From assembly GCF_000384475.1 (NCBI RefSeq), contig NZ_ARWB01000001.1:2646176-2710175 (forward strand): DNA of 64,000 nucleotides. Direction: 5' to 3'. Within the stretch, counting starts at the first letter, position 1. Every line of letters starts with the position of its first letter. The notes under the pieces were generated by a model, which made no database searches, was not told where the DNA came from, and saw only the letters and a program-made list of their open reading frames with translations. The position numbers and the translations under genes are program-made. Positions 6,004 through 31,300 of this stretch are shown piece after piece. Origin of the DNA: Methylopila sp. M107 (GTDB lineage: Bacteria; Pseudomonadota; Alphaproteobacteria; Rhizobiales; Methylopilaceae).

Positions 6004-11264
<5,261 letters not shown>

Positions 11265-11265
<1 letters not shown>

Positions 11266-13490: not shown

Positions 13491-13916
13491 TTAACCGGGC
13501 GCCGCGGCCAGTCCGTCCTGAGGCGAAAGCACCTCGATGATGCGGCAGTCCCTGACCGCCCCGTGTCCGCATTGACGCACCATGGCGCGGAGCTCGTCGC
13601 GCAGCGCCGCGAGGTCGGCGATCTTGCGCTCGACCTCGGCGAGGTGACCCTTGGCGATCTCGTCGACCGCCTCGCAGGGACGGTCGCGCTGGTCCGCCAG
13701 GTCGAGCAGCGCCCTGACCTGGTCGAGCGAGAACCCGAGGTCCCGCGACCGCCGGATGAAGCTCAGTCGGTTGAGGTGGCCGCGGTCGTAGGCTCGGTAG
13801 TTGCCGGATGTGCGCCGCGGGGCCGCCAGCAGGCCGATGCGCTCGTAGTAGCGGACGGTCTCGACCTTGGTGCCCGTCGCCCGTCCGAGTTCGCCGATCG
13901 CGAAGGTGTCCGACAT
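13491..13916 (-). CDS. MerR-family metal-responsive regulator (ZntR/CadR/PbrR type)
   Basis: A 141-residue transcription activator that distorts a long-spacer promoter when metal binds. The N-terminal winged HTH is clear: FAIGELGRATGTKVETVRYY then ERIGLLAAPRRTSGNYR. A dimer coiled coil follows. Metal-site cysteines lie in RDRPCEAVDEI (the Cys79-like position of ZntR) and in the C-terminal loop QCGHGAVRDCRIIE, which points to Zn, Cd or Pb rather than Cu or Hg. The ATG at 13916 follows GGGGGAG. It is divergent from the P-type ATPase it presumably controls. Confidence 0.9.
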   Translation of the reverse strand: MSDTFAIGELGRATGTKVETVRYYERIGLLAAPRRTSGNYRAYDRGHLNRLSFIRRSRDLGFSLDQVRALLDLADQRDRPCEAVDEIAKGHLAEVERKIADLAALRDELRAMVRQCGHGAVRDCRIIEVLSPQDGLAAAPG

Positions 13917-13933
13917 GCCGATCTCCCCCGGGC

Positions 13934-13966
13934 TTGACCCTCTAGTGGCTACAGGGTCCATATCGT
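13934..13966 (+). promoter_or_regulatory. MerR-type promoter/operator for zntA
   Basis: A -35 TTGACC at 13934-13939 overlaps a 21-bp imperfect dyad, ACCCTCTA ... ACAGGGT (13937-13957), lying before a -10-like ATATCG/TATCGT. The spacer is about 20 bp. Dyads of this form with an over-long spacer are the standard operator of ZntR/CadR/PbrR regulators. Confidence 0.85.
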
Positions 13967-13996
13967 ATGTCACGTCGGAATTGTCGAGGTGACGAG

Positions 13997-16129
13997 ATGG
14001 CCGCTGCGAGCGCCCTGAAGCTCCGCATCGAGGGCATGGACTGCGGGTCATGCGCCGCGAAGATCGAGACCGCGATGCGTCGCCTCCCAGGCGTCGCAGA
14101 GGTCGAGGTCAGCGTCGCCGCGTCCTCGATGTCGATCACGGTCGACGAGGACCGCACCACCCGCGAGGCGATTCGGGCCAAGGTCGATAGCCTTGGGTTC
14201 AAAGCAATCGATCCCGCGGCCGGCCCCGCGGCCGTTCACGATCATACGGCAGCCGAAGCCTCCTGGTGGTCGACCGCGAAGGGCAGGCTCGTTCTCACTT
14301 CGGGCGCGCTGCTCGCCGGGGCCTGGGGCGTCTCTTGGCTCGAACCGCAGTGGGCGGCGTGGCCCTACGTGGTCGCGGCTATCGTCGCGCTCGTTCCCGT
14401 GGCCCGGCGCGCCGTTGCGGGCGCTCTCAACGGCACGCCCTTCAGCATCGAGACCTTGATGGCCGTCGCCGCCATCGGCGCGATCGCGATCGGGGAGGCG
14501 CCGGAGGCGGCGACCGTGGTCTTCCTGTTTGCGGTCGGGGAGTTGCTAGAGGGCGTCGCGGCGAGCCGGGCGCGGGCTGGCGTGAAGGCGCTCGTCGACC
14601 TCATCCCCCGGACCGCCCGGCGCATCCGCGGCGACGAGGTCGAGACGGTCGCGGCCCAGGACCTCGCGGTGGGCGACCTCGTCCTCGTCCGGCCGGGCGA
14701 CCGCATCCCGTCCGACGGGACGGTGGCAGACGGGACCTCCGAGGTGAACGAGGCCCCGATCACAGGCGAGTCCCGGCCCGTTCTGAAGGACCCCGGGTCG
14801 AGCGTCTATGCGGGCAGCGTGAACGCCAACGGCGAACTCCGCGTCACAATCACGAAGGCGGCGGCCGACAACACGATCGCCCGTATCGTCCACATGGTCG
14901 AGGAGGCGCAGGCCTCGAAGGCGCCCACCGCCCGCTTCATCGAGCGCTTCAGCCGCTGGTACACGCCCGCCGCGATGGCGTTCGCGTTGCTCGTGATCCT
15001 TGTTCTGCCCTTGCTCGCGGGTGGCGACTGGCAGACCTGGATCTACCGCGGCCTCGCGGTGCTCCTCATCGCGTGCCCCTGCGCGCTAGTGATTTCGACC
15101 CCGGCGGCGATCGCCTCGGCGCTGGCGGGCGGCGCACGACGGGGCTTGCTCATCAAGGGCGGCGCGGCGCTCGAGACGCTCGGGCGGGTGAAGGCCGTCG
15201 CGTTCGACAAGACCGGAACCCTGACGGAAGGCCGCCCCAGGGTGATCGACATCGTGGCCGTCGACGGGACCGCCGACGAGACCCTCTCGAAGGCTGCCGC
15301 CGTCGAGCGCGGTTCCAGCCATCCGCTCGGGCTCGCCATCCTCGAGGAGGCGCAGTCGAGGGAGCTGGCGATCCCGAACGCGTTCGGTGGGGTCGCGGCG
15401 CCCGGCAAGGGCGTGACTGCGCGCCTGATGTCCGGCTTCGTCACCGTGGGCTCGCCGCGCCAGGCGGTCGAGAAGGGCCTGCTGGCTCCCGAAACCGCAG
15501 CGCGCGTGGCTGAGCTGGAGGACGCCGGCAACACCGTGGTGGCCGTCAGCGAGGGCGCCCGGTTGATCGGGCTGGTGGCGCTGCGGGACACCCTTCGTCC
15601 AGACGCGGCCGCGGGGCTTGAGCGCCTGCGGACACTGGGCCTGCGCACCGTCATGCTGACGGGCGACAACGCGCGCGCCGCCGCCGCGATCGCGGGCGAG
15701 CTGGGCGTCGAGCACCGCGCCGAGCTGATGCCCGCGGCCAAGCTCGAGACCATCGCGCGCCACCTCAAGGACGGGCCGATCGCGATGGTCGGGGACGGCG
15801 TGAACGACGCCCCGGCGCTCGCGGCGGCTTCGGTCGGAGTGGCAATGGGAGGCGGAACCGACGTAGCGCTCGAGACCGCCGACGCGGCCCTCCTCAGGGA
15901 CAGGGTCGGCGGCGTCGCGGAGCTGGTCGTCTTGTCCCGCGCGACGCTGTCGAACATCTGGACCAACGTCGCTCTCGCGCTCGGGCTGAAGGGCGCTTTC
16001 CTTGTCGCGACGCTGGCGGGCGCGACGCCGCTGTGGATGGCGATCCTCGCCGACACCGGGGCGACGGTGCTGGTAACCGCCAACGCGCTGCGACTGCTGC
16101 GATTTGATCCGTCGGGGACGGCAAGATGA
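13997..16129 (+). CDS. zntA: Zn/Cd/Pb-exporting P1B-type ATPase
   Basis: This pump drives divalent soft-metal export from the cytoplasm with ATP. It has 710 residues. An HMA metal-binding domain carries GMDCGSC (Cys16, Cys19). The membrane part has the ion-site motif ACPCALVIS. The actuator has EAPITGES, the phosphorylation site is [10 protein letters not shown], followed by the SSHPLG HP motif and the hinge [15 protein letters not shown]. The CPC plus the late membrane segment with ILADTGATVLVTANALRLL fits the Zn/Cd/Pb (P1B-2) subgroup. The ATG at 13997 follows GAGGTGACGAG; an upstream ATG at 13967 would sit at the transcription start. It is controlled by the divergent MerR-type protein. Confidence 0.93.
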   Translation: MAAASALKLRIEGMDCGSCAAKIETAMRRLPGVAEVEVSVAASSMSITVDEDRTTREAIRAKVDSLGFKAIDPAAGPAAVHDHTAAEASWWSTAKGRLVLTSGALLAGAWGVSWLEPQWAAWPYVVAAIVALVPVARRAVAGALNGTPFSIETLMAVAAIGAIAIGEAPEAATVVFLFAVGELLEGVAASRARAGVKALVDLIPRTARRIRGDEVETVAAQDLAVGDLVLVRPGDRIPSDGTVADGTSEVNEAPITGESRPVLKDPGSSVYAGSVNANGELRVTITKAAADNTIARIVHMVEEAQASKAPTARFIERFSRWYTPAAMAFALLVILVLPLLAGGDWQTWIYRGLAVLLIACPCALVISTPAAIASALAGGARRGLLIKGGAALETLGRVKAVAFDKTGTLTEGRPRVIDIVAVDGTADETLSKAAAVERGSSHPLGLAILEEAQSRELAIPNAFGGVAAPGKGVTARLMSGFVTVGSPRQAVEKGLLAPETAARVAELEDAGNTVVAVSEGARLIGLVALRDTLRPDAAAGLERLRTLGLRTVMLTGDNARAAAAIAGELGVEHRAELMPAAKLETIARHLKDGPIAMVGDGVNDAPALAAASVGVAMGGGTDVALETADAALLRDRVGGVAELVVLSRATLSNIWTNVALALGLKGAFLVATLAGATPLWMAILADTGATVLVTANALRLLRFDPSGTAR

Positions 16130-16372
16130 GCCCTCTGCACTCCGTGCGAACGGAATTTTCTTGGCTAGTTCCGCGGCGTTCGTGGGCTTCAGTAGATCAC
16201 TTACGGCACGGGCGGACTCCGCTTGGCGCCAGAAGCCGACATTGACCGCTTGCCCGAAAGCGGACGCTGGCGGCATGCGACAGAGCCCTCGCGACGCGAT
16301 AACTCTTCCGGTGAGCGCCAAGCTGATACCTACCCCTTGCATGCCGGCGGCGGCGCTGTAGCTGTTGATTGA

Positions 16373-16753
16373 ATGGACACCTCGTCGCCCGCAACGCCGT
16401 CGTCCGTCGCTGAGAACCCTCAGGTCCGGCTCGCCGAGGACCGTACCGTGTTGGCGGCCGAGCGCACGTATGCCTCTTGGCTCCGGACCGGGCTATCGTT
16501 CCTTGCGGTCGGACTTGCGGCTCAGCGGTTCCTGCGGGAGGTGCTGCCTGGCTCTCCGCTGTTCTTTGTGTCGTTCACGCTGATCTTCTGCGCGGTCGTG
16601 TGCTTCGGAGCCGCGGCGTGGCGCGACGCGGAGGTGCGGCGCAGGCTTGGGCGCGCTGAGGTCAGGCTGCTGCCGAGGTTCGTGACGCTGGGATTGCCAG
16701 TGATGCTGCTCGCGATGTCGAGCGTCGCAGCCGCGTTTCTCTGGACGCACTGA
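16373..16753 (+). CDS. DUF202 (YidH-like) membrane protein
   Basis: A 126-residue inner-membrane protein with three predicted helices (about residues 40-60, 65-85 and 103-123). It has the family signature LAEDRTVLAAERTYASWLRTG close to the first helix. Function is unknown for the family. It is preceded by about 240 bp with no gene I can support and is convergent with the sulfite oxidase-like gene. Confidence 0.8.
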   Translation: MDTSSPATPSSVAENPQVRLAEDRTVLAAERTYASWLRTGLSFLAVGLAAQRFLREVLPGSPLFFVSFTLIFCAVVCFGAAAWRDAEVRRRLGRAEVRLLPRFVTLGLPVMLLAMSSVAAAFLWTH

Positions 16754-16758
16754 CCGTC

Positions 16759-17850
16759 TCAGACGACCGTCACGTTCACCCGGTGCCACGACGAGCCGAG
16801 GTAGCCCTTGAAATTCCAGACATCTTCGGGGTCGGAGGGCTGCGTCTGACTCGCGGCGTCCCATGCCCGGACGACGAGTTCGTGGCGCCCCGCCGACAGC
16901 GTCGTCTCGATCTCCCAGAATGTCCACGCGAACGGCGCCGCCTCGTCGTTGGAAAGCTCGGCTTGCCGCCACGTCGAGCCGCCATCCGTGGAGACGTCGA
17001 CACGTCGGATCGCGCGGTCGCATGCGACGGCGTAGCCGCGGATAACGCAGGGGCCCGCATTCAGCGTCGCGCCTTCCGCCGGCTCGCAGATCGCAGAGTT
17101 GAGCGGCATCGCCTCGATCGTGGCGCCGTCGGCGGGGGCCGCGGTCTCCTGGTCGAGGTGCGGTGGGAACAGCTTGTAGTCGTCCGCCTGCATCGGATTG
17201 TCGGACGGCGCGTCCTGCACCGTGATCGAGGCCAGCCACTTGGGACTGCGCACGCCGGCGAAACCCGGCACGACGACGCGGAGCGGCTTGCCGTGCTCCG
17301 CCGCCAGCCGCTCGCCGTTCATATGGGTCGCGAGCAGCGTCTCGGCCGCAAGCGCCTTTTTAAGTTCGATCGAGGCGCCGAAGCGGAAGCGCTCCCCGTC
17401 CTGGTCGATCTCGTCGTGGCATTCGAACGCCACATGAAGGGCGGCGCTTTCGTCCACGCCCGCGGCGCGCAGCACGTCGCCGAGTCCGACCCCGTCCCAG
17501 CGCGCGTTGCCGATCGCGCCCGGCGCCCAGGGGTCGCCGGAGACCGGCCGGTGGCGGTGAAGATCTGCGCGACGGTTGCCGGCGCACTGCATGGTGGCAG
17601 TGACGGAGCGGGGCGGAAACTGCGCGATGAGGTCCGACAACGACAGATCGCGCGGCGTCGCGACGGCGCCGCCGACGGTGAGGCGGTAGCTGTCGGCTTC
17701 GAGATCCGGGATGTCGCCGTGGCTACGGACATAGAAGTCGGCGCGTCCGGTCAGATAGGCCGCACGCAGCCGGTCGAGCCGCGGCTCCGCATTGAACGGG
17801 GCGTCGCTGTGGACGATCTGGCCGGGTTTGCGCTGGGGTGAGGCTGTCAT
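16759..17850 (-). CDS. Sulfite oxidase-family molybdoenzyme, no signal peptide
   Basis: A 363-residue molybdopterin enzyme of the sulfite oxidase family. The Mo-binding domain has TATMQCAGNRRADL (Cys89 as Mo ligand), GAIGNARWDGVGLGDVLRAAGV, and VVVPGFAGVRSPKWLASITV. A C-terminal Ig-like dimerisation domain follows from about residue 250, with GAVATPRD-type strands before it and WNFKGYLGSSWHRV at the end. Unlike the second copy at 19423 it has neither a twin-arginine signal nor a cytochrome partner. Its location in the cell and its electron acceptor are therefore unclear. It may act on sulfite or a related S-oxide. It is transcribed leftward, divergent from the ECF sigma gene. Confidence 0.85.
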   Translation of the reverse strand: MTASPQRKPGQIVHSDAPFNAEPRLDRLRAAYLTGRADFYVRSHGDIPDLEADSYRLTVGGAVATPRDLSLSDLIAQFPPRSVTATMQCAGNRRADLHRHRPVSGDPWAPGAIGNARWDGVGLGDVLRAAGVDESAALHVAFECHDEIDQDGERFRFGASIELKKALAAETLLATHMNGERLAAEHGKPLRVVVPGFAGVRSPKWLASITVQDAPSDNPMQADDYKLFPPHLDQETAAPADGATIEAMPLNSAICEPAEGATLNAGPCVIRGYAVACDRAIRRVDVSTDGGSTWRQAELSNDEAAPFAWTFWEIETTLSAGRHELVVRAWDAASQTQPSDPEDVWNFKGYLGSSWHRVNVTVV

Positions 17851-17988
17851 GTCGCTCCTTGTCGTTGCGATCCAAACGGCCGGACGCCGTCGAATGATCC
17901 GGAGCGATGGCGGATCGTCTCGACTTCCCGCATTGTTGCGACAGGCAGCTCGACCATTTGGGTTCGGCGAGACACCGGAGCCGTCGAT

Positions 17989-18504
17989 CTGCGCGATGTC
18001 GTCGAACAGTGCCTGAAAGAGAGCTGGGGCCGTCTCTACGGCTATGCGCTCAGCCTGTGCGGCGACAGGGACGCCGCGCGCGACCTTTTGCAGAGCTGCG
18101 CCATGAAGGCGCTCGACAACGCCGCGCAGCCCCGCGAAGCCCACGCCGCCCGCGCCTGGCTGTTCGGCATCATGCGCAACGCGTGGATCGACGGGCTGCG
18201 GCGCGACGCGGTGCGGCGGCAGGATCCGCCGGCCGAGCCGATCGGGCCCACGCCCTGGTCCTACGAGGACGCCCGCATCGCCGAGATCACCGTGCGGCAG
18301 GGGCTCGAACGGATCGATCCGGCCCATCGCGAGGTGGTGGAGCTCGTCGACCTTGCGGGTTTCCGCTATGCCGAGGCCGCCGACATCCTTAGCGTTCCGG
18401 TCGGCACGGTGATGAGCCGCCTCTCCCGAGGGCGGCTCGCGCTGCTCGAGGCGATCGAGAGCGGTAACGTCACATCGCTGGAACGGAGCCGAACGAGCCG
18501 ATGA
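17989..18504 (+). CDS. ECF-type RNA polymerase sigma factor, start unresolved
   Basis: A small extracytoplasmic-function sigma factor. Region 2 is visible as LKESWGRLYGYALSLCGDRD, then AARDLLQSCAMKAL and ARAWLFGIMRNAWIDGLRRD. Region 4 is LERIDPAHREVVELVDLAGF then RYAEAADILSVPVGTVMSRL. The frame is open back past 17848, but between there and a TTG at 18088 it has no ATG, GTG or TTG, and 18088 would cut into region 2. I give a CTG at 17989. An ATT at 17956 or a small sequence error is also possible. It overlaps the anti-sigma gene by 4 nt. Confidence 0.75.
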   Translation: MRDVVEQCLKESWGRLYGYALSLCGDRDAARDLLQSCAMKALDNAAQPREAHAARAWLFGIMRNAWIDGLRRDAVRRQDPPAEPIGPTPWSYEDARIAEITVRQGLERIDPAHREVVELVDLAGFRYAEAADILSVPVGTVMSRLSRGRLALLEAIESGNVTSLERSRTSR

Positions 18505-19280
18505 CGACGATCGATTGGGAAACGCTAAACGCCTACGTGGACCGCGAACTTGCGCCGGCGGATGCTGCCCGCGTCGCCGCCGCCGCGGCGCGTGACCCGT
18601 CGATCGCGGCGCGGGTCGCCTCGCTCGCGGCGCTCAAGGCCGGCGCAGCCGCTGTAGCGGCGCCCGACGACGCCCCCGAGATTCCGATCCCTCCGCGCAA
18701 GCCTTATGCGGTCGGATGGCGGCCGATCGCGATTGCGGCGTCCGTCGCGCTACTGGCCGCCGCCGGCGCCGCGACATGGCCGCAACGGCCGCATTTTGAC
18801 GCCGATCCGATCGTTGGGGCCGTCGCGGCGGAGCGGACCTGGCTGACGGGAGCGCAGACCGATGCGCCGGCTGCAGGCGTCAGGGTCGCGGTCGCGGCCG
18901 GGGCGAGCGACAGTCTGCCGGACCTTTCGGCCGCGGACCTTCGGCTCGCTTATCTTGCGGCCGATCCTGCCGCCGACAGACCGAGAGGGCTGTTCGCCGG
19001 CTATGTCGGCCCGAAGGGCTGCCGCCTCGGGCTCTGGATCGGGCCGGGCGAGGAAGCCGAGACCCTGCCGGCCGCGCGCGACGTCGGCGACGTCATGGTG
19101 CGCTCCTGGTCGGCCGACGGCCGGGCCTACGCGCTCATGAGCCGGGGCATGGACGCGCGGCGTCTCGACCGTTTCGCGGCGGTGGTTTCAGAGATTGCGC
19201 GCCGAGGCCGCCGCGTCGACGACGGGCTGCGGCTTGCTCTGCTTGACGCATCCCGGACCGGCGCGGCCTGCGTGGGCTGA
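18501..19280 (+). CDS. Anti-sigma factor
   Basis: A 259-residue protein that probably holds the preceding ECF sigma at the membrane. The N-terminal 55 residues (WETLNAYVDRELAPADAARV) are the anti-sigma helical domain. One membrane helix lies at about residues 75-90 (PIAIAASVALLAAAGAATW), then a periplasmic domain of about 165 residues with GYVGPKGCRLGLWIG and MVRSWSADGRAYALMSRGMD. There is no CHCC zinc motif. The 4-nt overlap with the sigma gene shows co-translation. The signal it senses is unknown; the neighbours suggest sulfite or redox stress (inference). Confidence 0.8.
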   Translation: MTTIDWETLNAYVDRELAPADAARVAAAAARDPSIAARVASLAALKAGAAAVAAPDDAPEIPIPPRKPYAVGWRPIAIAASVALLAAAGAATWPQRPHFDADPIVGAVAAERTWLTGAQTDAPAAGVRVAVAAGASDSLPDLSAADLRLAYLAADPAADRPRGLFAGYVGPKGCRLGLWIGPGEEAETLPAARDVGDVMVRSWSADGRAYALMSRGMDARRLDRFAAVVSEIARRGRRVDDGLRLALLDASRTGAACVG

Positions 19281-19284
19281 CCCC

Positions 19285-19312
19285 GGAATAAAACGACCAG
19301 GCTGTGCGTCTC
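19285..19312 (+). promoter_or_regulatory. Putative ECF sigma promoter of sorAB
   Basis: GGAATA at 19285-19290 and CGTCTC at 19307-19312 are separated by 16 bp, followed by TCC. The same pair occurs at 24915-24942 (minus) and 24988-25014 (plus). It lies 110 bp before the sorA start. A GGAA-type -35 and CGT-type -10 are usual for ECF sigma factors. Confidence 0.6.
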
Positions 19313-19422
19313 TCCTTATCGCGAGGGTTGTGCCTCGCGGCGGCGGCGCGACCGTCGCCGTTTGTCGAAGACGCTGCCGGCCGATGGGCCGACCAGCGCG
19401 ACGCATCCTGGAGAGGACGCCA

Positions 19423-20721
19423 ATGACTTCGAACACCCGAGATGAGGCCGAAACCGCAGCGACGCCCGCCGGTTTCGATCGCCGCGGCTTCCTCACCCGC
19501 GCCGGACTGGCGGGAGCAGGCGCGGTGGTCGTGATGCGACCGGACATCGTGCTGGCGCAGGACGCCAAGCCCGCCGCCGCGGATGCAAAGCCTTCCGAAG
19601 CTCCGAAGCCGGTTGAGCCCGCGCCCTTCGCCTATGAGGGCAAGGACGCCGGCCTGACCGGCCTCGGCGACCGGCCGCTGGTGGCCGAGACGCCGGCCCA
19701 TCTGCTCGATGACGACACCACGCCAGTCTCGAAGTTCTTCATCCGCATGAACGGCCAAATCCCAGATCCGACCACGGACGCGGACGGCTGGAAACTCATG
19801 ATCGACGGCGAGGTCGAGACGCCGCTTGAGCTCTCGCTCAAGGATCTAAAGGAGCGCTTCAGCCCCAAGACCTATCGCATGGTGCTCGAATGCGGCGGCA
19901 ACGGCCGCTCCTTCTTTCAGCCGCCGGCCCGCGGCAACCAGTGGACCAACGGCGGCGCAGGCTGCGCCGAGTGGACCGGCGTGCCGCTCGCCGAGGTTCT
20001 GAAGGTCGCGAAGGTCAAGCCGTCGGCGAAATACACCGCCCACAGCGGCGTCGATCCGCACCTGTCGGGCGACCCGAAGAAGCAGAGCCTTTCGCGGGGC
20101 ATGCCAGTGGCCAAGGCGATGGACGAGCACAATCTCCTCGTCTTCGCCATGAACGGCGAGCCGCTGCCCAACGTCCATGGCGGGCCCCTCCGGCTCGTCG
20201 TGCCAGGCTGGCCGGGCTCGCTGTCGCACAAATGGCTGACCAAGATCACCCTGCGCGACAGGGAGCACGACGGTCAGGGCATGACAGGCCATTCCTACCG
20301 TCTGCCCGAAAAGCCGATGGTGCCGGGCTCCAAGGGCGACGGCGTCGCCTTCCGCATCCTAGAGTCGATGCCGATCCGCGCGGTCACGACGTCGCCCGCG
20401 AACGGCGCGAGGATGCCGGCGGGCGCACATGATCTGAAACTGCGCGGCGCCGCCTGGGGCGGCGACGTCCCCGTCAAGCGCGTCGACGTCACGATCGACG
20501 GCGGCCAAACATGGATCGAGGCCAAGCTTGCGCCAGTGAAGAACCGCTACGACTGGAACCGCTGGACCGCGGAGATCAAGCTGCCATCGGACGGCTATTT
20601 TGAGATTTTCGCGCGGGCGACCGACGCCGAGGGCAAGACCCAGCCGACGCTCGCGACCAACTGGAATCCGCAAGGCTACGGCGGCAACGCCCAGCACCGC
20701 ATCGCGATTTTGGTGGGCTGA
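19423..20721 (+). CDS. sorA: Periplasmic sulfite dehydrogenase, molybdenum subunit (SorA-like)
   Basis: Oxidises sulfite to sulfate in the periplasm and passes electrons to cytochrome c. It has 432 residues. A Tat signal (DRRGFLTRAGLAGAGAVVV) ends at about residue 45. The Mo domain carries MVLECGGNGRSFFQPPARGN (Cys157 as Mo ligand) and WTGVPLAEVLKVAKV. VVPGWPGSLSHKWLTKITLR follows, and the C-terminal dimerisation domain ends in WNPQGYGGNAQHRI. The ATG at 19423 follows GAGAGG. The cytochrome gene begins 4 bp after its stop, as in sorAB operons. A SoxC-like function is less likely because no other sox genes are present. Confidence 0.88.
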   Translation: MTSNTRDEAETAATPAGFDRRGFLTRAGLAGAGAVVVMRPDIVLAQDAKPAAADAKPSEAPKPVEPAPFAYEGKDAGLTGLGDRPLVAETPAHLLDDDTTPVSKFFIRMNGQIPDPTTDADGWKLMIDGEVETPLELSLKDLKERFSPKTYRMVLECGGNGRSFFQPPARGNQWTNGGAGCAEWTGVPLAEVLKVAKVKPSAKYTAHSGVDPHLSGDPKKQSLSRGMPVAKAMDEHNLLVFAMNGEPLPNVHGGPLRLVVPGWPGSLSHKWLTKITLRDREHDGQGMTGHSYRLPEKPMVPGSKGDGVAFRILESMPIRAVTTSPANGARMPAGAHDLKLRGAAWGGDVPVKRVDVTIDGGQTWIEAKLAPVKNRYDWNRWTAEIKLPSDGYFEIFARATDAEGKTQPTLATNWNPQGYGGNAQHRIAILVG

Positions 20722-20725
20722 GCCG

Positions 20726-21088
20726 ATGGCGTATCGAGACTGGATTTTCTCCGCCGTGCTCCTGATCGGCGCGGCGACCCTTCCGGCGACGGCGCAGCAG
20801 CCGGGCGCCGCGCCCGCGGAGGAGAGCGCCGAACAACTCCCCGCGGGGCCTGGCCGCGACGAGGCTTTCGGGATGTGTTCGGCCTGCCATGCCTACCGAT
20901 TGGTCGCCGCGCAAAGCATGAGCCGTGAGCGCTGGGACGACACCATGACGCTGATGACCGAGAAGCACGGCATGCCGAAGCTCGAGAGCGAGGATCGCAA
21001 GCTCATCCTCGACTATCTCGCCAAGACCCATCCGCCCAAGAAGGCGACGGGGACGGGAGGCTTCCAGATCCCGTTCGCGCCGCAATAA
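20726..21088 (+). CDS. sorB: SorB-like cytochrome c subunit
   Basis: A 120-residue secreted c-type cytochrome with a signal peptide (WIFSAVLLIGAATLPATA) and one haem-binding motif CSACH (Cys51, Cys54, His55). Downstream residues MSRERWDDTMTLMTEKHGMP may supply the axial Met. It starts 4 bp after sorA, so it is the electron acceptor of the sulfite dehydrogenase by context and length. Confidence 0.85.
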   Translation: MAYRDWIFSAVLLIGAATLPATAQQPGAAPAEESAEQLPAGPGRDEAFGMCSACHAYRLVAAQSMSRERWDDTMTLMTEKHGMPKLESEDRKLILDYLAKTHPPKKATGTGGFQIPFAPQ

Positions 21089-21096
21089 CGGCTCTC

Positions 21097-21138
21097 GGCA
21101 TCCTGGACGCAGGCGCTTAGCCGCGCGTCCAGGATGCC
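21097..21138 (+). terminator. Hairpin after sorAB
   Basis: Two perfect 14-bp arms (GGCATCCTGGACGC at 21097 and its complement ending at 21138) flank a 14-nt loop. There is no T-run, so it may protect the sorAB message or partly terminate rather than act as a classical terminator. Confidence 0.6.
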
Positions 21139-21181
21139 GTCCCGCGCCGCCTGTCCTTCCAAGCGCTATCGGGAGCAAGCC

Positions 21182-21319
21182 ATGACCGATCCCCAGATTA
21201 CCGAAACCACCGATGACGCGCGGCAGGGCGAAACCAGCAATCACGTGCGATGGGTGCTGTTATTCACCGTGCTCCTGACGATTGTCGGCGTCAGCGTCGT
21301 ATGGTTCACCACGCCCTGA
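21182..21319 (+). CDS. Small single-helix membrane protein
   Basis: A 45-residue protein with an acidic N-terminus (MTDPQITETTDDARQGETSN) and one C-terminal membrane helix (WVLLFTVLLTIVGVSVVWFT). The ATG at 21182 follows GGGAGCAAGCC. It sits between the sor hairpin and the DUF302 gene. The function is unknown; it may be a small subunit tied to the sulfite system. Confidence 0.6.
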   Translation: MTDPQITETTDDARQGETSNHVRWVLLFTVLLTIVGVSVVWFTTP

Positions 21320-21365
21320 AGGCTCGATCGCGGGATCGACGGAAGTCATGCCGAAGAGGATAGTC

Positions 21366-21827
21366 ATGCCGAGGATGATCTTTCTTGCGTCTTTGGTCGC
21401 CGCCGTGGTCGGCGGGACCGCAACCCATGCGGCCGACGCTGGCTCTGCGATGACGAGCGCGTCCAATTTCGCAGCGACGCTCGCCAAGGCGCGAGCCGCC
21501 ATCGAGTCGAAGAAACTGACGGTCTTCGCCGAGATCGATCATTCCCGCGCGGCGGAGAAAGCGGGCCTTTCGTTGCCGCCTACGACGCTTCTCATCTTCG
21601 GCAATCCGAAAGGCGGCACGCCTCTCATGGCCTGCGACCAGGCGATCGGAATCGATCTGCCGCTCAAGGCTCTGATCTGGCAGGACGCCGCTGGCGTCGT
21701 TCGGATCAAGTTTTCGGACCCGGCCTCGATTGCGGCCAGCCATGGGCTTGGCGATTGCGCCAAGGCTGCCGTCGACGCCATGTCCAAGGCCGTAAAGTCG
21801 ATCGCCGCCGAGGCCGTCGCCGGTTGA
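21366..21827 (+). CDS. Secreted DUF302 protein
   Basis: A 153-residue protein with a signal peptide (MPRMIFLASLVAAVVGGTATHA) and a DUF302 domain, shown by TVFAEIDHSRAAEKAGLSLP, LLIFGNPKGGTPLM and DLPLKALIWQD. DUF302 proteins often accompany sulfur, redox or metal genes; their biochemical role is not established. The ATG at 21366 has AAGAGGA at a good distance; one at 21348 is also in frame. It is the last gene of the rightward sor cluster and is convergent with the exporter gene. Confidence 0.8.
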   Translation: MPRMIFLASLVAAVVGGTATHAADAGSAMTSASNFAATLAKARAAIESKKLTVFAEIDHSRAAEKAGLSLPPTTLLIFGNPKGGTPLMACDQAIGIDLPLKALIWQDAAGVVRIKFSDPASIAASHGLGDCAKAAVDAMSKAVKSIAAEAVAG

Positions 21828-21867
21828 CCGCTCCCTGTTGACGGCGCGTCGGCGGCGGGCGCGGGAG

Positions 21868-23019
21868 TTATTCGCTCTTCAGACAGGGCGCCACGAACAG
21901 GTCGCCGCGCCAGGCGCCGCCGACCGTGCGGGCGCCGACGATCAGCCAGAGCAAGCCAAGCGCCGCCACCAGCAGCGTGCCGAAGCCATAAATCGCGCCG
22001 ATCGGCAGCATCGTCCCGAGCTTGAGCGTCGCCACGGCATAGACGCCGATCGGGAAGGTGTAGCCCCACCAGCCGATGTTGAACGGCAGCCCGTCGCGAA
22101 GGTAGCGCAGCGTGACGATCAGCGCGAGCGCGAACCACCACAGGCCGTAGCCCCAGAGCAGCAGCCCGCCGAACAGGCCAAGCCCGTCCGCGAAGGCGCC
22201 GAAGCGCTCGAGCCCGTTCGCGGCCAGGATCGCCGGCGCCGCGCCGCCGAGCGTCATCAGGCCGAGCGCGCCGGTGCCGATCGGTCCGAGCGCGAGCCAG
22301 CTTGAGGCCGCCATGTTGGCGTGCGGCAGGTTATGCAGCGCCATCCGGAGCAGCAGCACCACCAGGATGCTCATGGCGACCGGGACCGAAAGCGCCCAGA
22401 GCACGTAGGACAGCGTCAGCATCACGAGCTGAGCGTGGCCGTCCGCCAGATGCGGCGCCAGCAGCCCGCCGGAGACGGCCACGACCTCGGCCGCGACGAC
22501 GGGAAGCAGCCAGACCGCCGTCATCTGGTCAATGGCGTGCGTCTGGCGGGTGAACATCAGGAATGGGATCGCGACGCCGCAGACAGCGGCGAGCGCCACG
22601 TCGATCCACCAGAGCGTCCAGGCGATGTCGACCGCGACAGGCCCGAAACGGGACAGCCCAAAGATCAGGAAGCCGTTGACGATGGTGGCGAGGCCCATCG
22701 GGATGCAGCCGAAGAACATCGAGACCACCGAGTGGCCGAAGATGCGGCGTGCGCCGTCGAAGAAGAAGATCCAGCGCGCGGCGTAGAGACAGGAGAACAG
22801 CGCGAACAGGCCAATGTTGAACATCCAGAGCCCTTCAGCGACGCCATGAAGCGCCGGGACCGACGTCTCGAACTGGGCGAGCGCGATGGCGAGAATGCCG
22901 GTGCCCATGGTGGCGGCGAACCAGTTCGGCGTGAACTGGCGGACCACTTCGCGCGGGCTCGCAAGCCGCGACAGCGGCCGCAGCCCGAGCGTCACCTCAC
23001 GCATGTGTTCATATGTCAT
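21868..23019 (-). CDS. TehA/SSU1-family (TDT) exporter, probably sulfite
   Basis: A 383-residue inner-membrane protein with about ten helices and the family start FTPNWFAATMGTGILAIALAQF. The later segments GLWWFALALIVTLRYLR, LPFNIGWWGYTFPIGVYAVA and KLGTMLPIGAIYGFGT are typical of the tellurite-resistance/dicarboxylate/SSU1 group. Yeast SSU1 and bacterial relatives export sulfite. With two sulfite oxidase genes next to it, sulfite export is the likely job (inference from context). It lies downstream of the YVTN and DUF305 genes on the same strand, separated by a hairpin. Confidence 0.82.
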   Translation of the reverse strand: MTYEHMREVTLGLRPLSRLASPREVVRQFTPNWFAATMGTGILAIALAQFETSVPALHGVAEGLWMFNIGLFALFSCLYAARWIFFFDGARRIFGHSVVSMFFGCIPMGLATIVNGFLIFGLSRFGPVAVDIAWTLWWIDVALAAVCGVAIPFLMFTRQTHAIDQMTAVWLLPVVAAEVVAVSGGLLAPHLADGHAQLVMLTLSYVLWALSVPVAMSILVVLLLRMALHNLPHANMAASSWLALGPIGTGALGLMTLGGAAPAILAANGLERFGAFADGLGLFGGLLLWGYGLWWFALALIVTLRYLRDGLPFNIGWWGYTFPIGVYAVATLKLGTMLPIGAIYGFGTLLVAALGLLWLIVGARTVGGAWRGDLFVAPCLKSE

Positions 23020-23032
23020 CGTGTTGTTCCTT

Positions 23033-23056
23033 CCTCGACGGCGAACGCCGTCGAGG
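23033..23056 (-). terminator. Hairpin between propeller gene and exporter
   Basis: Perfect 11-bp arms (CCTCGACGGCG and its complement) with a 2-nt loop lie between the propeller gene and the downstream exporter gene. Without a T-run it is probably an attenuating or stabilising hairpin. Confidence 0.5.
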
Positions 23057-23094
23057 CGTTTGAACCTGGCGCTTGTCCGCGCCGATTTCAGTCT

Positions 23095-24477
23095 TTAGCC
23101 GCCCGACAGCGCCGCCGCATCGGTCGCCTTCGCGGCCTCGCCCTCGACGACCCTGAGCTTGCCGCTCCTGGCCGCCGCGTCCGGCTTTACGATAGACCGC
23201 ACCGGGCCGGTGGCGGAGGCCATGGCGGCGCCCTTCTCGTTTGTCTTGAACGCTGCGACCGGTTCCGCCGCGCCGTCCATGAATACGCTGTAGGCGGTGT
23301 CGGGCTTCAGCTTGGAAACGCTGACTTCGATGATGTCGATCAGCCCGAGATTGCGCGCCACCACTTGCCCTGCGCCCATGCCGCCCTCGGGCGCCTTGAG
23401 ATTCAGCGTCAGGTTCTGCAAGCTCTTCCTCAGCGGCGTCAGGTTCTCCGTGTCTGCGCCGGCCGGCGCAGCGCCTGGAACGTAGACCAGCGCCTGCGGC
23501 GCTTGCCCGATCGCCATATGGGCGACCGCCTTGTTGCTCTCGGCGTCGATCACGTCGACGCCGTCGCCGTTCTCCAGGCCGACGTAGACCCGGCTGCCAT
23601 CGCCGCTCGCCCAGATCCCGTGCGGCAGCGCCCCAACCGGGATCGTGGCGGCAAGCTTGGCCTCGTCGTCGAGCGTGTAGACCTTGACCACGTTCTGGCC
23701 CCCGATGGTGACGTAAGCGAGCGTCTTGCCGCCGCTCATGCCGAAGGCGAGATGGTTCGAGATCGGGCCGCTGTCGATCACGCCCTTGACCTCGAGCGTC
23801 TTGGTGTCAATCCGCGTGACCTTGCCAACGTCCTTGTGCGTCATCCAGGCTTCTGACCCGTCCGGCGTCACCTGGATGAAAGGCGAGAACGGCGACACGA
23901 CCTTGATCTGCTTGATGATCTTCTTCGTCGCCACGTCGATGACGTCGACTTGGGGGTTGAAGCTGTTCGCGACGAAAGCAAGCTTCCCGTCCTTCGAGAA
24001 GATCGTCATGCCCGGACCGCTGGTGGTCTTGATCTGGCCTATCTCCTTGAAGGTCGTCGGGTCGATGACGGCCAGATGGTCCTCGCCGCGCACCGTCGAC
24101 CACACCTCCCTGCCGTCCGGCGTGAAGAAGGCCTCGTGCGGGTTGCGGCCGATATAGGCCGTGCCTTTCACGGTGTTCGTCGCGGTGTCGATGAAGGTGA
24201 CGGAGTTGGTCACGGTCGAGACCGCCACGACCGTCTTGTGGTCCGGCGAGAAACCGAGGCCGTGGACGTTGACCTGACCTTTGTAGAGCGGGCTCAGCAC
24301 GTTGGGACGCGGGTCGCCGAGCTTGATCTGGCCGAGCGTCTCGTTCTTCACGGGGTCGATAACCGAGACCGTGTTCGAGTTCTGGTCGGCGGTGTAGACG
24401 CGATCGCCGTCCTGCGGGAGCGCGTAGGCCGAGGTCGCGGTCAGCAGACCGGCGGCGATGAGGGCGAGGCGCTTCAT
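23095..24477 (-). CDS. Secreted YVTN-type beta-propeller protein
   Basis: A 460-residue protein with a signal peptide (MKRLALIAAGLLTATSAYA) followed by about seven propeller blades. Examples are RVYTADQNSNTVSVIDPVKN, KTVVAVSTVTNSVTFIDTAT and AYVTIGGQNVVKVYTLDDEA. The last ~110 residues (NLTPLRKSLQNLTLNLKA onward) are a separate domain. YVTN proteins are periplasmic propellers, often near copper or redox enzymes; the ligand is unknown. The ATG at 24477 overlaps the DUF305 gene by 4 nt, so the two are co-translated. Confidence 0.85.
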   Translation of the reverse strand: MKRLALIAAGLLTATSAYALPQDGDRVYTADQNSNTVSVIDPVKNETLGQIKLGDPRPNVLSPLYKGQVNVHGLGFSPDHKTVVAVSTVTNSVTFIDTATNTVKGTAYIGRNPHEAFFTPDGREVWSTVRGEDHLAVIDPTTFKEIGQIKTTSGPGMTIFSKDGKLAFVANSFNPQVDVIDVATKKIIKQIKVVSPFSPFIQVTPDGSEAWMTHKDVGKVTRIDTKTLEVKGVIDSGPISNHLAFGMSGGKTLAYVTIGGQNVVKVYTLDDEAKLAATIPVGALPHGIWASGDGSRVYVGLENGDGVDVIDAESNKAVAHMAIGQAPQALVYVPGAAPAGADTENLTPLRKSLQNLTLNLKAPEGGMGAGQVVARNLGLIDIIEVSVSKLKPDTAYSVFMDGAAEPVAAFKTNEKGAAMASATGPVRSIVKPDAAARSGKLRVVEGEAAKATDAAALSGG

Positions 24478-24884
24478 TTGGGGGCGTCCTTGTTGGCCGA
24501 GGCTTTCTCGGCGAGCAGGCGGGTCATCAGGTCGATCTCGTATGTCTGCTCGACAATGATCGACTGGGCGAGGTTGCGGATGGTCGGGTCGTCGGACGCG
24601 AGCAGCGCGGCCTTGGCCATGTCGATCGCGCCCTGATGATGCGGGATCATCTGCGAGAGGAAGTCGTGGGCGGGGTCGCCGGTGAGGGCCACGCCCATCA
24701 TGCCGGCGTGCATCCGCTCCATGGTTTTGGCGTTGCTCGCGGCGTAGTTGGCGGCCTTGGGGTTGGCGTTCGCCGGCACGGCCGGCGCAGGCGTGGTCAT
24801 CGAGGAATGGACGTGCGCTTCTTGCGCATGGGCGGGAATGGCGAACGCGACGAGCGCTGCGCCGAGAAGGACGGCGGTCCGCAT
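24474..24884 (-). CDS. Secreted DUF305 protein
   Basis: A 136-residue protein with a signal peptide (MRTAVLLGAALVAFAIPAHA), a short His/Pro linker and a DUF305 four-helix domain. The domain has MHAGMMGVALTGDPAHDFLS, QMIPHHQGAIDMAKAALL and EQTYEIDLMTRLLAE. The MIPHHQGAIDMA motif supplies likely metal-binding Met and His residues. DUF305 proteins are frequent in copper-resistance loci. Its promoter appears to be the ECF-type site at 24915-24942, so it would belong to the ECF regulon here. Confidence 0.85.
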   Translation of the reverse strand: MRTAVLLGAALVAFAIPAHAQEAHVHSSMTTPAPAVPANANPKAANYAASNAKTMERMHAGMMGVALTGDPAHDFLSQMIPHHQGAIDMAKAALLASDDPTIRNLAQSIIVEQTYEIDLMTRLLAEKASANKDAPK

Positions 24885-24914
24885 CGGGCCTCCAGGTTCG
24901 TGGGATGTGAAGGA

Positions 24915-24942
24915 GAGACGCCCATTGCGCCTCCGGTATTCC
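24915..24942 (-). promoter_or_regulatory. Putative ECF sigma promoter of DUF305-YVTN operon
   Basis: Read on the minus strand, GGAATA (24942-24937), a 16-bp spacer and CGTCTC (24920-24915) match the sorAB promoter, including the following TCC. The DUF305 start codon lies about 30 bp further on. Confidence 0.6.
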
Positions 24943-24987
24943 CGCGGCGCGCAAACATTCCTCGGACCGATTAATTTTGGAGGCGGT

Positions 24988-25014
24988 GGAATAGCCGCGT
25001 CGGCGGGGCGTCTC
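24988..25014 (+). promoter_or_regulatory. Putative ECF sigma promoter of the NTF2-sigma-antisigma operon
   Basis: GGAATA at 24988-24993 and CGTCTC at 25009-25014 are 15 bp apart, one less than in the two sister sites. It would place the transcript start near 25020 and make the ECF operon self-activating. The two promoters at 24915 and 24988 are divergent. Confidence 0.55.
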
Positions 25015-25052: not shown

Positions 25053-25469
25053 ATGCGCATTCTTCTCTCCGCCGTCACACTCGTCGCCCTCGCGAGCCCC
25101 GCACTCGCCGGTCCCGCCGGCGACATGGCAAAGGCCCGCATCGACGCCGTCGCCAAGGGCGACGTGGCGACTGTCACCGGCGAATACGCCGACGGCGCGT
25201 CGCTGCACTGGATCGGCGGTCCGCTCGACGGCATGTACGCCGGCCCAGAGAAACTGAAGACGGTCTGGACCAAGTTCACGACCGCGCAGGGTCCGCAGAC
25301 CGCGACCGTCGCCGCCGTCTCCGAGGCCGTGAACCCGAAGGGCGCGACAGTCACCGCCGACGTGACCTTCGCGGGCAAGAACACGGTGAAGGTGCGCTAT
25401 GTCATGGTCTATCGCGACGGCAAGCTCGCCGACGAGATCTGGCAGGTGAACCCCGGCGCGACCTACTGA
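25053..25469 (+). CDS. Secreted NTF2-like (SnoaL-type) protein
   Basis: A 138-residue protein with a signal peptide (MRILLSAVTLVALASPALAG). An NTF2-like cone domain follows: DMAKARIDAVAKGDVATVTG, GASLHWIGGPLDGMYAGPEK, and a final strand VMVYRDGKLADEIWQVNPG. Function cannot be read from the sequence. The ATG at 25053 gives a leader of about 30 nt from the predicted start; an ATG at 25020 lies at the predicted transcript start. It heads an operon with an ECF sigma and its anti-sigma and may be part of the response or the sensing. Confidence 0.75.
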   Translation: MRILLSAVTLVALASPALAGPAGDMAKARIDAVAKGDVATVTGEYADGASLHWIGGPLDGMYAGPEKLKTVWTKFTTAQGPQTATVAAVSEAVNPKGATVTADVTFAGKNTVKVRYVMVYRDGKLADEIWQVNPGATY

Positions 25470-25488: not shown

Positions 25489-25995
25489 TTGGACGAGACC
25501 GCCGCCCTTCTGGAACCGCTAATCCCGTCGCTCAGGCGCTACGCGTACGCGTTGACGCGGGACCACGGGGCGGCGGACGACCTCGTGCAGGACACGCTGG
25601 AGCGCGCGCTGTCGCGGTGGTATCTGCGCCGACGCGACGGCGACCTTCGGGCGTGGCTGTTCACGATCGAGCGCAACCTCTACGTCAGCGGCTTGCGCCG
25701 TCGCCGTTCGCGCGGCGTAGAAGTCGCGCTCGACGATGCGGCCGAGCCTGCCGTGGACGGCGGCCAGGAATCCTCGGTCGGTATGCGCGACCTGCTGGCG
25801 GCGCTTGACCAGCTCCCCGAGGATCACAAGTCGATCCTGCTGCTGGTGGGCGTCGAAGATCTCACATACGAGGAGGCCGCCGGCGTCCTTGACGTGCCCA
25901 TTGGCACCGTAATGTCCCGGCTGTCGCGCGGCCGCCAGCGGTTGCGCACGCTTCTGGAGACGGGCCGCACGACGTTGCTGCGGAGAGTGAAATGA
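25489..25995 (+). CDS. ECF-type RNA polymerase sigma factor
   Basis: A 168-residue ECF sigma factor. Region 2 is RRYAYALTRDHGAADDLVQD then TLERALSRWYLRRRDGDLRA. Region 4 is ALDQLPEDHKSILLLVGVED then LTYEEAAGVLDVPIGTVMSR. A TTG start at 25489 follows GAGAGG; no ATG fits. It overlaps the anti-sigma gene by 4 nt. It is the best candidate to recognise the three GGAATA/CGTCTC promoters, since one of them precedes its own operon. Confidence 0.87.
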   Translation: MDETAALLEPLIPSLRRYAYALTRDHGAADDLVQDTLERALSRWYLRRRDGDLRAWLFTIERNLYVSGLRRRRSRGVEVALDDAAEPAVDGGQESSVGMRDLLAALDQLPEDHKSILLLVGVEDLTYEEAAGVLDVPIGTVMSRLSRGRQRLRTLLETGRTTLLRRVK

Positions 25996-26786
25996 GCAGC
26001 CTGCCGATCGGTGACGACGACCTCGTGGCCTATGTGGACGCCCGGCTTGCGCCCGCGCGAAGGGCTGAGGTCGAGACCTATCTCGCGACCCATCCCGAGA
26101 TCGCCGCGCGCGTCGAGGCCGACCTCGCACAGCGCGCGGCGCTGCGCGACCGGCTGGCGCCGAAGGCGGCGGAGCCGATCCCGGCGCGGCTCAGGGTCGC
26201 GAATATCGCGGCTGCCCGCCGTGCGCGGCAGGGCGCGCAGCTCCGCGCGATGGCGGCCGGCGTCGCGCTGATGGTCGCGGGCGGCGGCGCGGGCTGGATC
26301 GCGAACGACCTCGCGACCGCGGGCAGGCCGGCCGGCGCGCCCGCGGCTGTAACAGCGTCGAACGCCAGCTTCGTGGACGACGCCGTCGGCGCCTACCGCA
26401 CCTTCGTGGTCGAGGTCGCGCATCCCGTGGAGGTGCGCGCCGGCGACGAAGCGCATCTGGTGCAGTGGCTGTCGAAGCGCGTCGGCAAGCCTTTGAAGAC
26501 GCCGGACCTCACCGCCTTCGGCTTCCGCCTGATGGGCGGCCGCGTGCTGCCGGCGGGATCCGCCGCCGCCGCCATGCTGATGTATGACGACGACGCCGGC
26601 ACACGGATGACCGTCTACATCCGCGCTGACCAGGGCGCCGAGACCGCGTTCCAGTTCCTGCGCGAAGGCGAGATCTCGACTTTCACCTGGCTCGACCGCG
26701 GCTTTGGCTTCGCAGTCTCCGCAGCGACCGACCGAGACCGACTGCTGCCGATCGCGGAGGCCGTCTACAAAAGCCTCGGCGCATGA
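25992..26786 (+). CDS. Anti-sigma factor
   Basis: A 264-residue membrane anti-sigma. The cytoplasmic domain is IGDDDLVAYVDARLAPARRA to about residue 60. A membrane helix lies at about residues 85-105 (AMAAGVALMVAGGGAGWIAN), and a periplasmic domain of about 155 residues contains FRTFVVEVAHPVEV-like and LTAFGFRLMGGRVLPAG segments. The periplasmic part belongs to the same general type as other alphaproteobacterial anti-sigmas paired with such ECFs. It is coupled to the sigma gene by a 4-nt overlap. Confidence 0.82.
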   Translation: MSSLPIGDDDLVAYVDARLAPARRAEVETYLATHPEIAARVEADLAQRAALRDRLAPKAAEPIPARLRVANIAAARRARQGAQLRAMAAGVALMVAGGGAGWIANDLATAGRPAGAPAAVTASNASFVDDAVGAYRTFVVEVAHPVEVRAGDEAHLVQWLSKRVGKPLKTPDLTAFGFRLMGGRVLPAGSAAAAMLMYDDDAGTRMTVYIRADQGAETAFQFLREGEISTFTWLDRGFGFAVSAATDRDRLLPIAEAVYKSLGA

Positions 26787-28313: not shown

Positions 28314-31300
28314 TCAAGCCCGGGAGCTGATCGGCAAGCTGCAAATTTCTGACCGTTCGAGGCCGAAGCCCTTCACGAGGGCGTAGACCGCGGGGATGAC
28401 GAGCAACGTCAGGACGGTGGAAGAGACCATGCCGCCGATCATCGGGACCGCGATGCGCTGCATGACCTCGGAGCCAGCTCCCGTACTCCATAGGATAGGC
28501 AGCAGCCCCGCCATGATGGCGAGCACGGTCATCATCTTAGGCCTCACGCGTTCCACCGCGCCCACCATGATCGCCTGGGTCAGGTCGGCGCGTGTGAACG
28601 GCTTGCCTTCGGCCGCCCGTCTCGCCTTCAATTCTTCGAGCGCGTGGTCGAGATAGATCAGCATGATCACGCCGGTCTCCGCCGCGACGCCGGCGAGCGC
28701 AATGAACCCGACCGCGACGGCGACCGACAGGTTGAAGCCGAGCCACCACATCAGCCAGAGCCCGCCGACCAGCGCGAAAGGCAGCGACAGCATGACGATC
28801 AGCGTCTCGGTCAGGCGGCGGAAGTTGAGGTAGAGCAGCAGGAAGATCAGCCCCAACGTCAGCGGTACGACGATCTTCAGCCGCGCCTCGGCGCGCTCGA
28901 GGTACTCGAACTGGCCCGACCACTCGACCGACGATCCGGTCGGCAGCGCGACCTTCTCCGCGACCGCCTTGCGGGCGTCGGCGACGTAGCCGCCGAGGTC
29001 GCGGCCGACGATGTCGACGAAGATGTAGATTGCGAGCTTGCCGTTCTCGGTGCGGATCGAGGTCGGCCCGCGGGTGCGCTTGATGCTGGCGACCTCGGCC
29101 AACGGCACCGTCCCGCCGCCCGCCATCGGGACCAAGACCTCGCGACCGATCGACTGGGGATCGCTTCTGAGGTCGCGCGGGTAGCGGACGTTGACGGCGT
29201 AGCGCTCCCGGCCCTCGACTGTCGTGGTGACGGTCTCGCCGCCGAGCGCGGTCGCGATCACGTCCTGCACGTCGCTCACCATCAGGCCGTAGCGGGCGAG
29301 CGCGGAACGGTCCGGCGTGATGTCGAGGTAGTAGCCGCCGATGACACGCTCGGCGTAGGCGCTCGATGTGCCCGGGACGGTCTTGACCGCCTGCTCGACC
29401 TCGCGGGCGAGCTTCTCCATCTCCACGAGGTCGGATCCGTAGACCTTGAGCCCGACGGGCGTCCGGATGCCCGTCGCCAGCATGTCGATGCGGGCGCGGA
29501 TCGGCATGGTCCAGGCGTTCGACACGCCGGGAAACTGCAGCGCCTTGTCCATCTCGGCCTTGAGGCTCTCGGTCGTCACGCCCGGCCGCCACTCGGACCT
29601 GGGCTTCAGGTTGATGATCGTCTCGGTCATCTCGCTCGGCGCGGGGTCGGTTGCGGTCGCCGCGCGGCCGGCCTTGCCGTAGACGGAGGCCACTTCCGGA
29701 AACGACTTGATGATCCGACCTTGCGTCTGCAGCAGTTCCGTTGAGCGCGAGACCGAGATGCCGGGCAGCGTTGTCGGCATGTACATCAGCGTGCCCTCGT
29801 CGAGCGGGGGCATGAACTCCGAGCCGAGCTGCATCGCGGGCCACCACGACGCGCCAAGCGCCGCCACCGCGAGCAGGATGGTCAGCGTCTTGGCCCTGAG
29901 CACGCCGCGGATGATCGGCCGGTAGAGCCAGATCAGAACGCGGTTCACCGGGTTCCTGTGCTCGGGGACGATGCGGCCGCGGACGAAGATCACCATCAGC
30001 GCCGGCACCAGCGTCACCGACAGCAGCGCGGCCGCCGCCATTGCGAAGGTCTTGGTGAAGGCGAGCGGCCCGAACAGGCGGCCTTCCTGGCTCTCCAGCG
30101 TGAAGATCGGCAGGAACGAGACGGTGATGATGAGCAGGCTGAAGAACAGCGCCGGCCCGACCTCCTGCGCCGCCTCGATCAGGACCTCGACCCGCGGCTT
30201 GCCCGGGGCTGCCCGCTCCAGGTGCTTGTGCGCGTTCTCGATCATGACGATGGCGGCGTCGATCATGGCCCCGACCGCGATCGCGATGCCGCCGAGGCTC
30301 ATGATGTTGGCCCCGATCCCGAGCGCCTTCATGGCCCCGAACGCCATCAGGATGCCGACCGGCAGCATCAGGATCGCGACCAGCGCGCTGCGGACGTGGA
30401 GCAGAAACACGATCGTCACCAGCGCGACGACGATGCTTTCCTCGATCAGCGTCGACTTCAGGGTTTCGATCGCGGCCTCGATCAGGTGCGAGCGGTCGTA
30501 GACCGGCACGATCTCGGTGCCGGCCGGCAGGCTCGGCATCAGCGCCGCGATCTTGGCCTTGACGTTGCCGATGACGTCGAGCGCGTTCGCGCCGTAGCGC
30601 TGCAGCACGATGCCGCTCGCGACCTCGCCTTCGCCGTTGAGCTCCGTGATCCCCCGCCGCTCGTCGGGGCCGAGCTCGACCCGCGCCACGTCCTTCAGCA
30701 GCACCGGCGTACCGCCGTCGACCTTGAGCACCGTCTGCTCGATGTCCTTGATGCTCTTCAGGTAGCCGCGGCCCCGGACCATGAACTCGAACTCGCTGAG
30801 CTCGAGCGTCCTGCCGCCGGTGTCCATGTTGCTGCCGCGCACGACGTCGCGGACCTTCGACAGCGGAATGCCGAGCGCGCGAAGGCGCTGGGGATCGACC
30901 ACGACGTTGTACTGCTTGGCGAAGCCGCCGACGCTCGCCACCTCGGCGACGCCCTCGGCCGCCGACGCCCCGAAGCGCACCTGCCAGTCCTGGGTCGAGC
31001 GGGTCTCGGCCAGCGTTTGGTTCTTGGCCATGACGGCGTATTGGTAGACCCAGCCGACGCCGGTGGCGTCCGGCCCGAGCGTCGGCGTGACGTTCGACGG
31101 CAGCCGCGGCGCGGCGGCGCTGAGAAACTCTAGCACCCGCGAGCGCGCCCAATAGGGGTCGGTGCCGTCCTGGAAGATGACGTAGACGAACGAGACGCCG
31201 AAGAACGAAAAACCGCGCACTACCCTGGATTTCGGCACGGTCAGCATGGCGGTGGTGAGCGGATAGGTGACCTGGTCCTCGACCACCTGCGGCCCTTGGC

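Follow-up and report, generated by a model that had tools for sequence, protein, structure and literature searches.

A Probable Two-Sigma Sulfite-Response Island with Three ECF-Type Promoter Sites in Methylopila sp. M107

Two-Sigma Sulfite Circuits and the Methylopila Locus

Sulfite circuits that involve two sigma factors have been described in two species. In Starkeya novella, SnSigE activates sorA 129-fold, and the RpoE1-like SnRpoE1 activates both sorA and the promoter of duf305, a gene followed by a YVTN gene; the consensus combines a -35 GGAAT with a -10 CGTC, and the sigE promoter is without it (PMC6527743). The 270-bp region directly upstream of rpoE1 was not activated (PMC6527743), so that autoregulation is not universal. 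This paper is also the only literature found that joins DUF305, a sigma factor and sulfite. In S. meliloti, sulfite elicits a response of both RpoE1 and RpoE4, and the two cross-activate (PMC3511301, PMC6180224). Induction has been described for sulfite, taurine and tetrathionate (PMC6527743, PMC3511301), which lends no support to the idea of a periplasmic metal/redox stress suggested by an earlier note on the Methylopila DNA.

The locus described here lies in a stretch of 64,000 nt of the Methylopila sp. M107 genome, hereafter the window. Its genes form a single island in the order DUF202(+), mopII(-), sig1-anti1(+), site 1, dehydrogenase and cytochrome(+), DUF302(+), TDT/SLAC1(-), YVTN and DUF305(-), sites 2 and 3, NTF2-sig2-anti2(+) (table 1). 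Both sigma/anti-sigma gene pairs overlap by 4 nt, the arrangement of sigma and overlapping anti-sigma genes that is expected of ECF26 sulfite regulons, and DUF305-YVTN lies beside an ECF sigma/anti-sigma pair with a consensus promoter before DUF305, as at a Starkeya-type RpoE1 locus. Gene sets, consensus, sigma types and a sigE-type gene without a consensus promoter are all as in the SigE-sorAB and RpoE1 (Snov_0990-0993) regions of S. novella (PMC6527743). However, those are reported as separate regions whereas here they constitute one island; the dehydrogenase here is not SorA, unlike that of S. novella sorAB; and the NTF2-rpoE1-type operon has a site, in contrast to the inactive rpoE1 upstream region of S. 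novella (PMC6527743). In the RpoE4-sorT/sorU/azu2 and RpoE1 system of S. meliloti (PMC3511301, PMC6180224) a pair of ECF26 sigmas whose promoters overlap likewise centers on a sulfite dehydrogenase, the RpoE1 operon is autoregulated via a leading small secreted-protein gene, and the mapped promoters of rpoE4, sorT and SMc04291 (PMC6180224) align with the window sites. That system differs in its enzyme (SorT), in an autoregulated rpoE4 and in a leading gene, SMc01418, in place of NTF2, and the parts of these reports consulted describe no DUF305-YVTN target. The link between sulfite oxidation and DUF305-YVTN drawn in the earlier note is supported here and had already been published for S. novella (PMC6527743). 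The regulatory principle is therefore known in relatives; the arrangement and the apparent enzyme swap are the points of some interest.

Table 1. Genes and promoter sites of the island, with window coordinates.
Feature	Position	Strand	Basis or remark
DUF202 membrane protein	16373..16753	+	Pfam DUF202; likewise beside mopII on a plasmid of Methylobacterium bullatum (L280)
mopII, second sulfite-oxidase-superfamily molybdopterin enzyme	16759..17850	-	Pfam PF00174/PF03404
sig1, SigE/RpoE4-type ECF sigma	17989..18504	+	Pfam Sigma70_r2/r4_2, tree; probable CTG start
anti1, putative membrane anti-sigma factor of sig1	18501..19280	+	placement and shared bases with sig1; annotation of orthologs as "anti-sigma factor"; no Pfam match at cut-off
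Promoter site 1, GGAATA-N16-CGTCTC	19285..19312	+	precedes sulfite dehydrogenase operon
Sulfite dehydrogenase catalytic subunit, divergent type	19423..20721	+	not SorA, SorT or SoxC by cut-off
c-type cytochrome partner	20726..21088	+	one CxxCH motif; distant from SorB
DUF302 protein	21348..21827	+	domain match
TDT/SLAC1-family transporter	21868..23019	-	domain match; conserved neighbor in genus
YVTN/YncE-like beta-propeller protein	23095..24477	-	domain matches
DUF305 protein	24474..24884	-	domain match; 4-nt overlap with YVTN gene
Promoter site 2, GGAATA-N16-CGTCTC	24915..24942 (24942-24915)	-	precedes DUF305-YVTN operon
Promoter site 3, GGAATA-N15-CGTCTC	24988..25014	+	precedes NTF2-sig2-anti2 operon
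NTF2/SnoaL-like protein, signal-peptide-like N terminus	25053..25469	+	domain match; ORF opens at 25020, relatives' sequences favor the start at 25053
sig2, RpoE1-type ECF sigma	25489..25995	+	domain match, tree
anti2, putative membrane anti-sigma factor of sig2	25992..26786	+	position, overlap with sig2, weak anti-sigma matches, annotated orthologs

Rarity of the Promoter Motif

The three sites are present exactly where the earlier note had placed them, with spacers of N16, N16 and N15. GGAATA-N15/16-CGTCTC has exactly three copies in the genome, all inside 5.7 kb and each directly 5' of its operon, sites 2 and 3 lying back to back between the divergent DUF305-YVTN and NTF2-sig2-anti2 operons. 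When the spacer is widened to N13-19, the 4,453,493-base genome yields five matches, three here and two with N18; at N15-17 the three island sites are the only ones genome-wide. Base composition leads one to expect approximately 0.8 N15-17 sites in the genome, and shuffles of the window (n=100) gave a mean of 0.03 motif matches, with 0/100 reaching three. In GC-rich DNA, short hexamers separated by a variable gap may turn up by chance, and the two N18 matches elsewhere in the genome are in keeping with this. Nevertheless, the three sites observed compare with approximately 0.0002 expected in the 150 nt upstream of cluster genes, the position of the motif is kept across genera although the spacers differ, and the comparison of sig2-linked loci (below) contradicts a set of chance matches as well. 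A chance origin is thus ruled out by genome rarity, upstream expectation and conservation across loci, and we give it a negligible probability; the genome-wide search proposed in the earlier note did not return the motif at chance frequency.

The looser pattern GGAATD-N15/16-CGTCYY has nine genome sites versus one for its reversed control. Of the six additional sites, five fall in or against coding frames or at the end of a gene, and a wider regulon beyond the island was rejected on account of the placement of most of them. The sixth, GGAATT-N16-CGTCCT at L273:1501-1528 (-) (genome 3342636-3342663), is the only other genome site under this pattern that is placed like a promoter, about 68 nt before a DUF5330 gene; no counterpart was found in the two relatives scanned, G008 and G016. 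With two mismatches allowed there are 238 matches versus 139 in the reversed control, and the pattern is uninformative at that looseness.

All three island sites have the -35 GGAAT(A), the -10 CGTC and the 15-16 nt spacer of ECF26 sulfite-regulon promoters (PMC6527743, PMC6180224). On sequence grounds they are very probably ECF26-type promoters that form a compact sulfite-response regulon. The ECF promoter motif and the very small regulon put forward in the earlier note are accordingly borne out by genome rarity together with comparative and published data. Downstream of site 1, where the dehydrogenase mRNA is predicted to begin, there is a perfect 7-bp hairpin, CGCGAGG-GTTGTG-CCTCGCG (19320-19339); in relatives a different one (GGGGAATATGTCCCC) occupies roughly this position.

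Conservation in Relatives

The whole cluster is kept at the same-genus loci L127, L148 and L227, with sites before dehydrogenase, DUF305 and NTF2; by genome, its carriers are G008 and G009 (same genus) and G016. The mopII gene, divergent from sig1, is present in all same-genus clusters. We compared loci, mainly alpha- and betaproteobacterial, that were found with the YVTN protein: a site occurs at DUF305 and/or NTF2 in 33 of the 46 loci with a linked sig2 (four with a reversed-pattern control) and in 5 of the 37 without one, all alphaproteobacterial, counts that are phylogenetically non-independent and show the direction of the effect rather than providing a significance test. A recognizable site is absent in 13 sig2-linked loci. 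Methylobacterium plasmid loci have GGAATA-N15-CATCTCTCC, with a variant -10 (CATC). Where NTF2-sig2-anti2-DUF305-YVTN runs in one direction, mostly in betaproteobacteria, a site is found at the NTF2 end only, as expected for one operon. At sig1 loci without YVTN (L215, L217, L218) the site is kept before their dehydrogenases. In several betaproteobacteria (L151, L152, L158, L163 and similar loci) NTF2-sig2-anti2-DUF305-YVTN is in most cases succeeded by a further sulfite-oxidase-like gene, another link between DUF305/YVTN and that enzyme class.

The Two Sigma Factors and the Proposed Circuit

A tree built from 62 ECF sequences puts sig1 and sig2 in different groups, both of them supported and each tied to a locus type of its own; the labels RpoE4/SigE and RpoE1 that we use for them rest on gene context. 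NCBIfam returned general sigma matches only for both, which are putative members of ECF26. Their regions 4.2 are nearly identical (VPVGTVMSRLSRGR and VPIGTVMSRLSRGR), both reading VPxGTVMSRLSRGR, and differ from that of the next closest paralog in the genome, which suggests a shared -35 preference. The sig1 frame has no in-frame ATG, GTG or TTG upstream. In the pUSP5 ortholog the annotated Met falls opposite a CTG at 17989, and all four genus members have a purine-rich GGAG stretch shortly before this codon. The copy in G016 is 94% identical to sig1, and its immediate upstream flank differs in length by a single base. Judging from the alignment with pUSP5, translation probably begins at the CTG, and a frameshifted pseudogene, considered for want of the usual start codons, was dropped in its favor; the unusual codon leaves some doubt on how well sig1 is translated. 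No autoregulatory site was found upstream of sig1, where the nearest CGTCTC (approximately 17918) is preceded, across a 19-nt gap, by no more than GAAT-like bases.

We consider it likely that ECF26-type sigmas use the three sites as promoters and that the region is a two-sigma sulfite-response island. What we observed directly is the presence of the sites, how rare they are, that they recur at the same genes in relatives, and a region 4.2 that is nearly the same in both sigmas; for promoter activity, sigma-promoter pairing and the inducer we infer the following scheme. Two sigma/anti-sigma pairs would operate, one with sig1 ahead of the dehydrogenase genes and one with sig2 as part of the NTF2 operon. 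In response to sulfite or a different reduced sulfur compound, the membrane anti-sigmas would release their sigmas, which would then read GGAATA-N15/16-CGTCTC. The dehydrogenase operon could be fired by both, and sig2 would mainly fire DUF305-YVTN and its own NTF2-sig2-anti2 operon in a positive feedback. Site 3, which precedes that operon, supports the autoregulation predicted in the earlier note, while sig1 would not be autoregulated, being without such a site, like sigE in S. novella. The two sigma types probably share the promoter, since each keeps it in single-sigma loci and their regions 4.2 are nearly identical; on both counts the assignment of the regulon to one of the two ECF sigmas in the earlier note is probably wrong.

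Two other distributions of the work must be weighed against this shared use. If sig2 only used the three sites, sig1 being poorly translated or having another target, the dehydrogenase would be a sig2 target here, in agreement with the absent ATG/GTG/TTG start of sig1 in this genome and with the strong activation of sorA by SnRpoE1 in S. novella (PMC6527743). Yet the alignment of the CTG and the conserved GGAG stretch point to translation, the identity with the G016 copy makes sig1 look maintained, and the dehydrogenases of sig1-only loci keep the same promoter, so that we find exclusive use by sig2 unlikely. Alternatively the island might hold two insulated circuits, told apart by details of spacer or -10, in which sig1 acts on the dehydrogenase promoter only and sig2 on DUF305 and NTF2 only. 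We judge this somewhat less improbable than exclusive use by sig2, though still doubtful. The sites before sig1-linked dehydrogenases are all N16 in the loci examined, and those of sig2-only loci are nearly all N15, as insulation would have it. However, the DUF305 site of the window is N16, the same as that of the dehydrogenase; sig2 targets are N16 also in Methylopila and on pUSP5; and measurements in both model species showed cross-activation (PMC6527743, PMC3511301), S. meliloti sorT having N15. In two-sigma clusters generally, most sig2-target sites are N16, in cases from few lineages. Given these few two-sigma lineages and the N15 of sorT, the pattern of spacers by sigma content is a lead only.

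Plasmid Islands and Possible Exchange of the Dehydrogenase

The two-sigma island also occurs on three plasmids typed as conjugative. pBbPL7HG1 (Bradyrhizobium betae) carries SorAB and recognizable sites; pUSP5 (Aminobacter sp. MSH1) has SorT, a cytochrome and a pseudoazurin, with recognizable sites, one of them before sig1; on pCMU01 (Methylorubrum extorquens CM4), where the island spans the record's origin, SorAB is accompanied by diverged sites (CGAATA or CATC). As in the window, sig1-anti1-dehydrogenase lies beside sig2-anti2, and NTF2 and DUF305-YVTN are present on some; unlike the window enzyme, those of the plasmids are true SorAB or SorT. The tested two-sigma sulfite circuit would thereby extend to Methylopila and relatives, in the form of a compact island that conjugative plasmids carry too.

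The window dehydrogenase belongs to the sulfite oxidase superfamily, with Oxidored_molyb and Mo-co_dimer domains and a best solved-structure match to 2blf (E 7.5e-59). Its scores of 245 bits for NCBIfam SorA (cut-off 600), 208 for NCBIfam SorT (cut-off 570) and 189 for SoxC TIGR04555 (cut-off 420) all lie below the curated thresholds, as does that of the cytochrome for SorB (36 bits, cut-off 93). The name sorAB used in the earlier note is thus ruled out for both subunits. Relatives have a true SorA (687-703 bits) and SorB (132 bits) in the same slot. In the tree the window enzyme joins a third group, some members of which also stand behind a sig1-type gene, and an enzyme this similar was found in no other genome of the family scanned. 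DNA homology with G016 runs from 16206 to 19310 at 84%, breaks off at the -10 of site 1 and picks up again near 21181. This suggests, from the alignment, that the enzyme genes were exchanged at the promoter, where homology with the relative stops. Inside the block, identity is approximately 82-94% from 16280 through sig1 and falls to 61-75% within anti1, so that the exact breakpoint may lie elsewhere and the exchange may have run in either direction.

Tentatively, the island might represent a mobile two-sigma sulfite-response module, in which the ECF promoter serves as a socket after sig1-anti1 for swapped SorAB, SorT or other dehydrogenases and a shared N16 promoter lets either signal open all outputs; we regard this as possible but would not favor it. 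One promoter before three kinds of sulfite dehydrogenase constitutes a natural series in which cross-talk between the RpoE4 and RpoE1 sigma types could be tested directly, as could the parts played by DUF305, YVTN and NTF2 in sulfur stress.

Flanking Regions

Homology to relatives ends near both island edges, at approximately 16206 and 27164. Metal-resistance genes flank the island (6492-16129 and 28314-42272), among them RND efflux, P-type ATPase, MerR-like regulator and multicopper oxidase genes. A HipA-like kinase gene is located at 50222-51619. Three consecutive minus-strand genes at the right end of the window (61185-63931) encode a PycTIR-like effector, an E2-like protein and a PycC-like cyclase; they form a Pycsar-like operon for defence that includes an E2 component.
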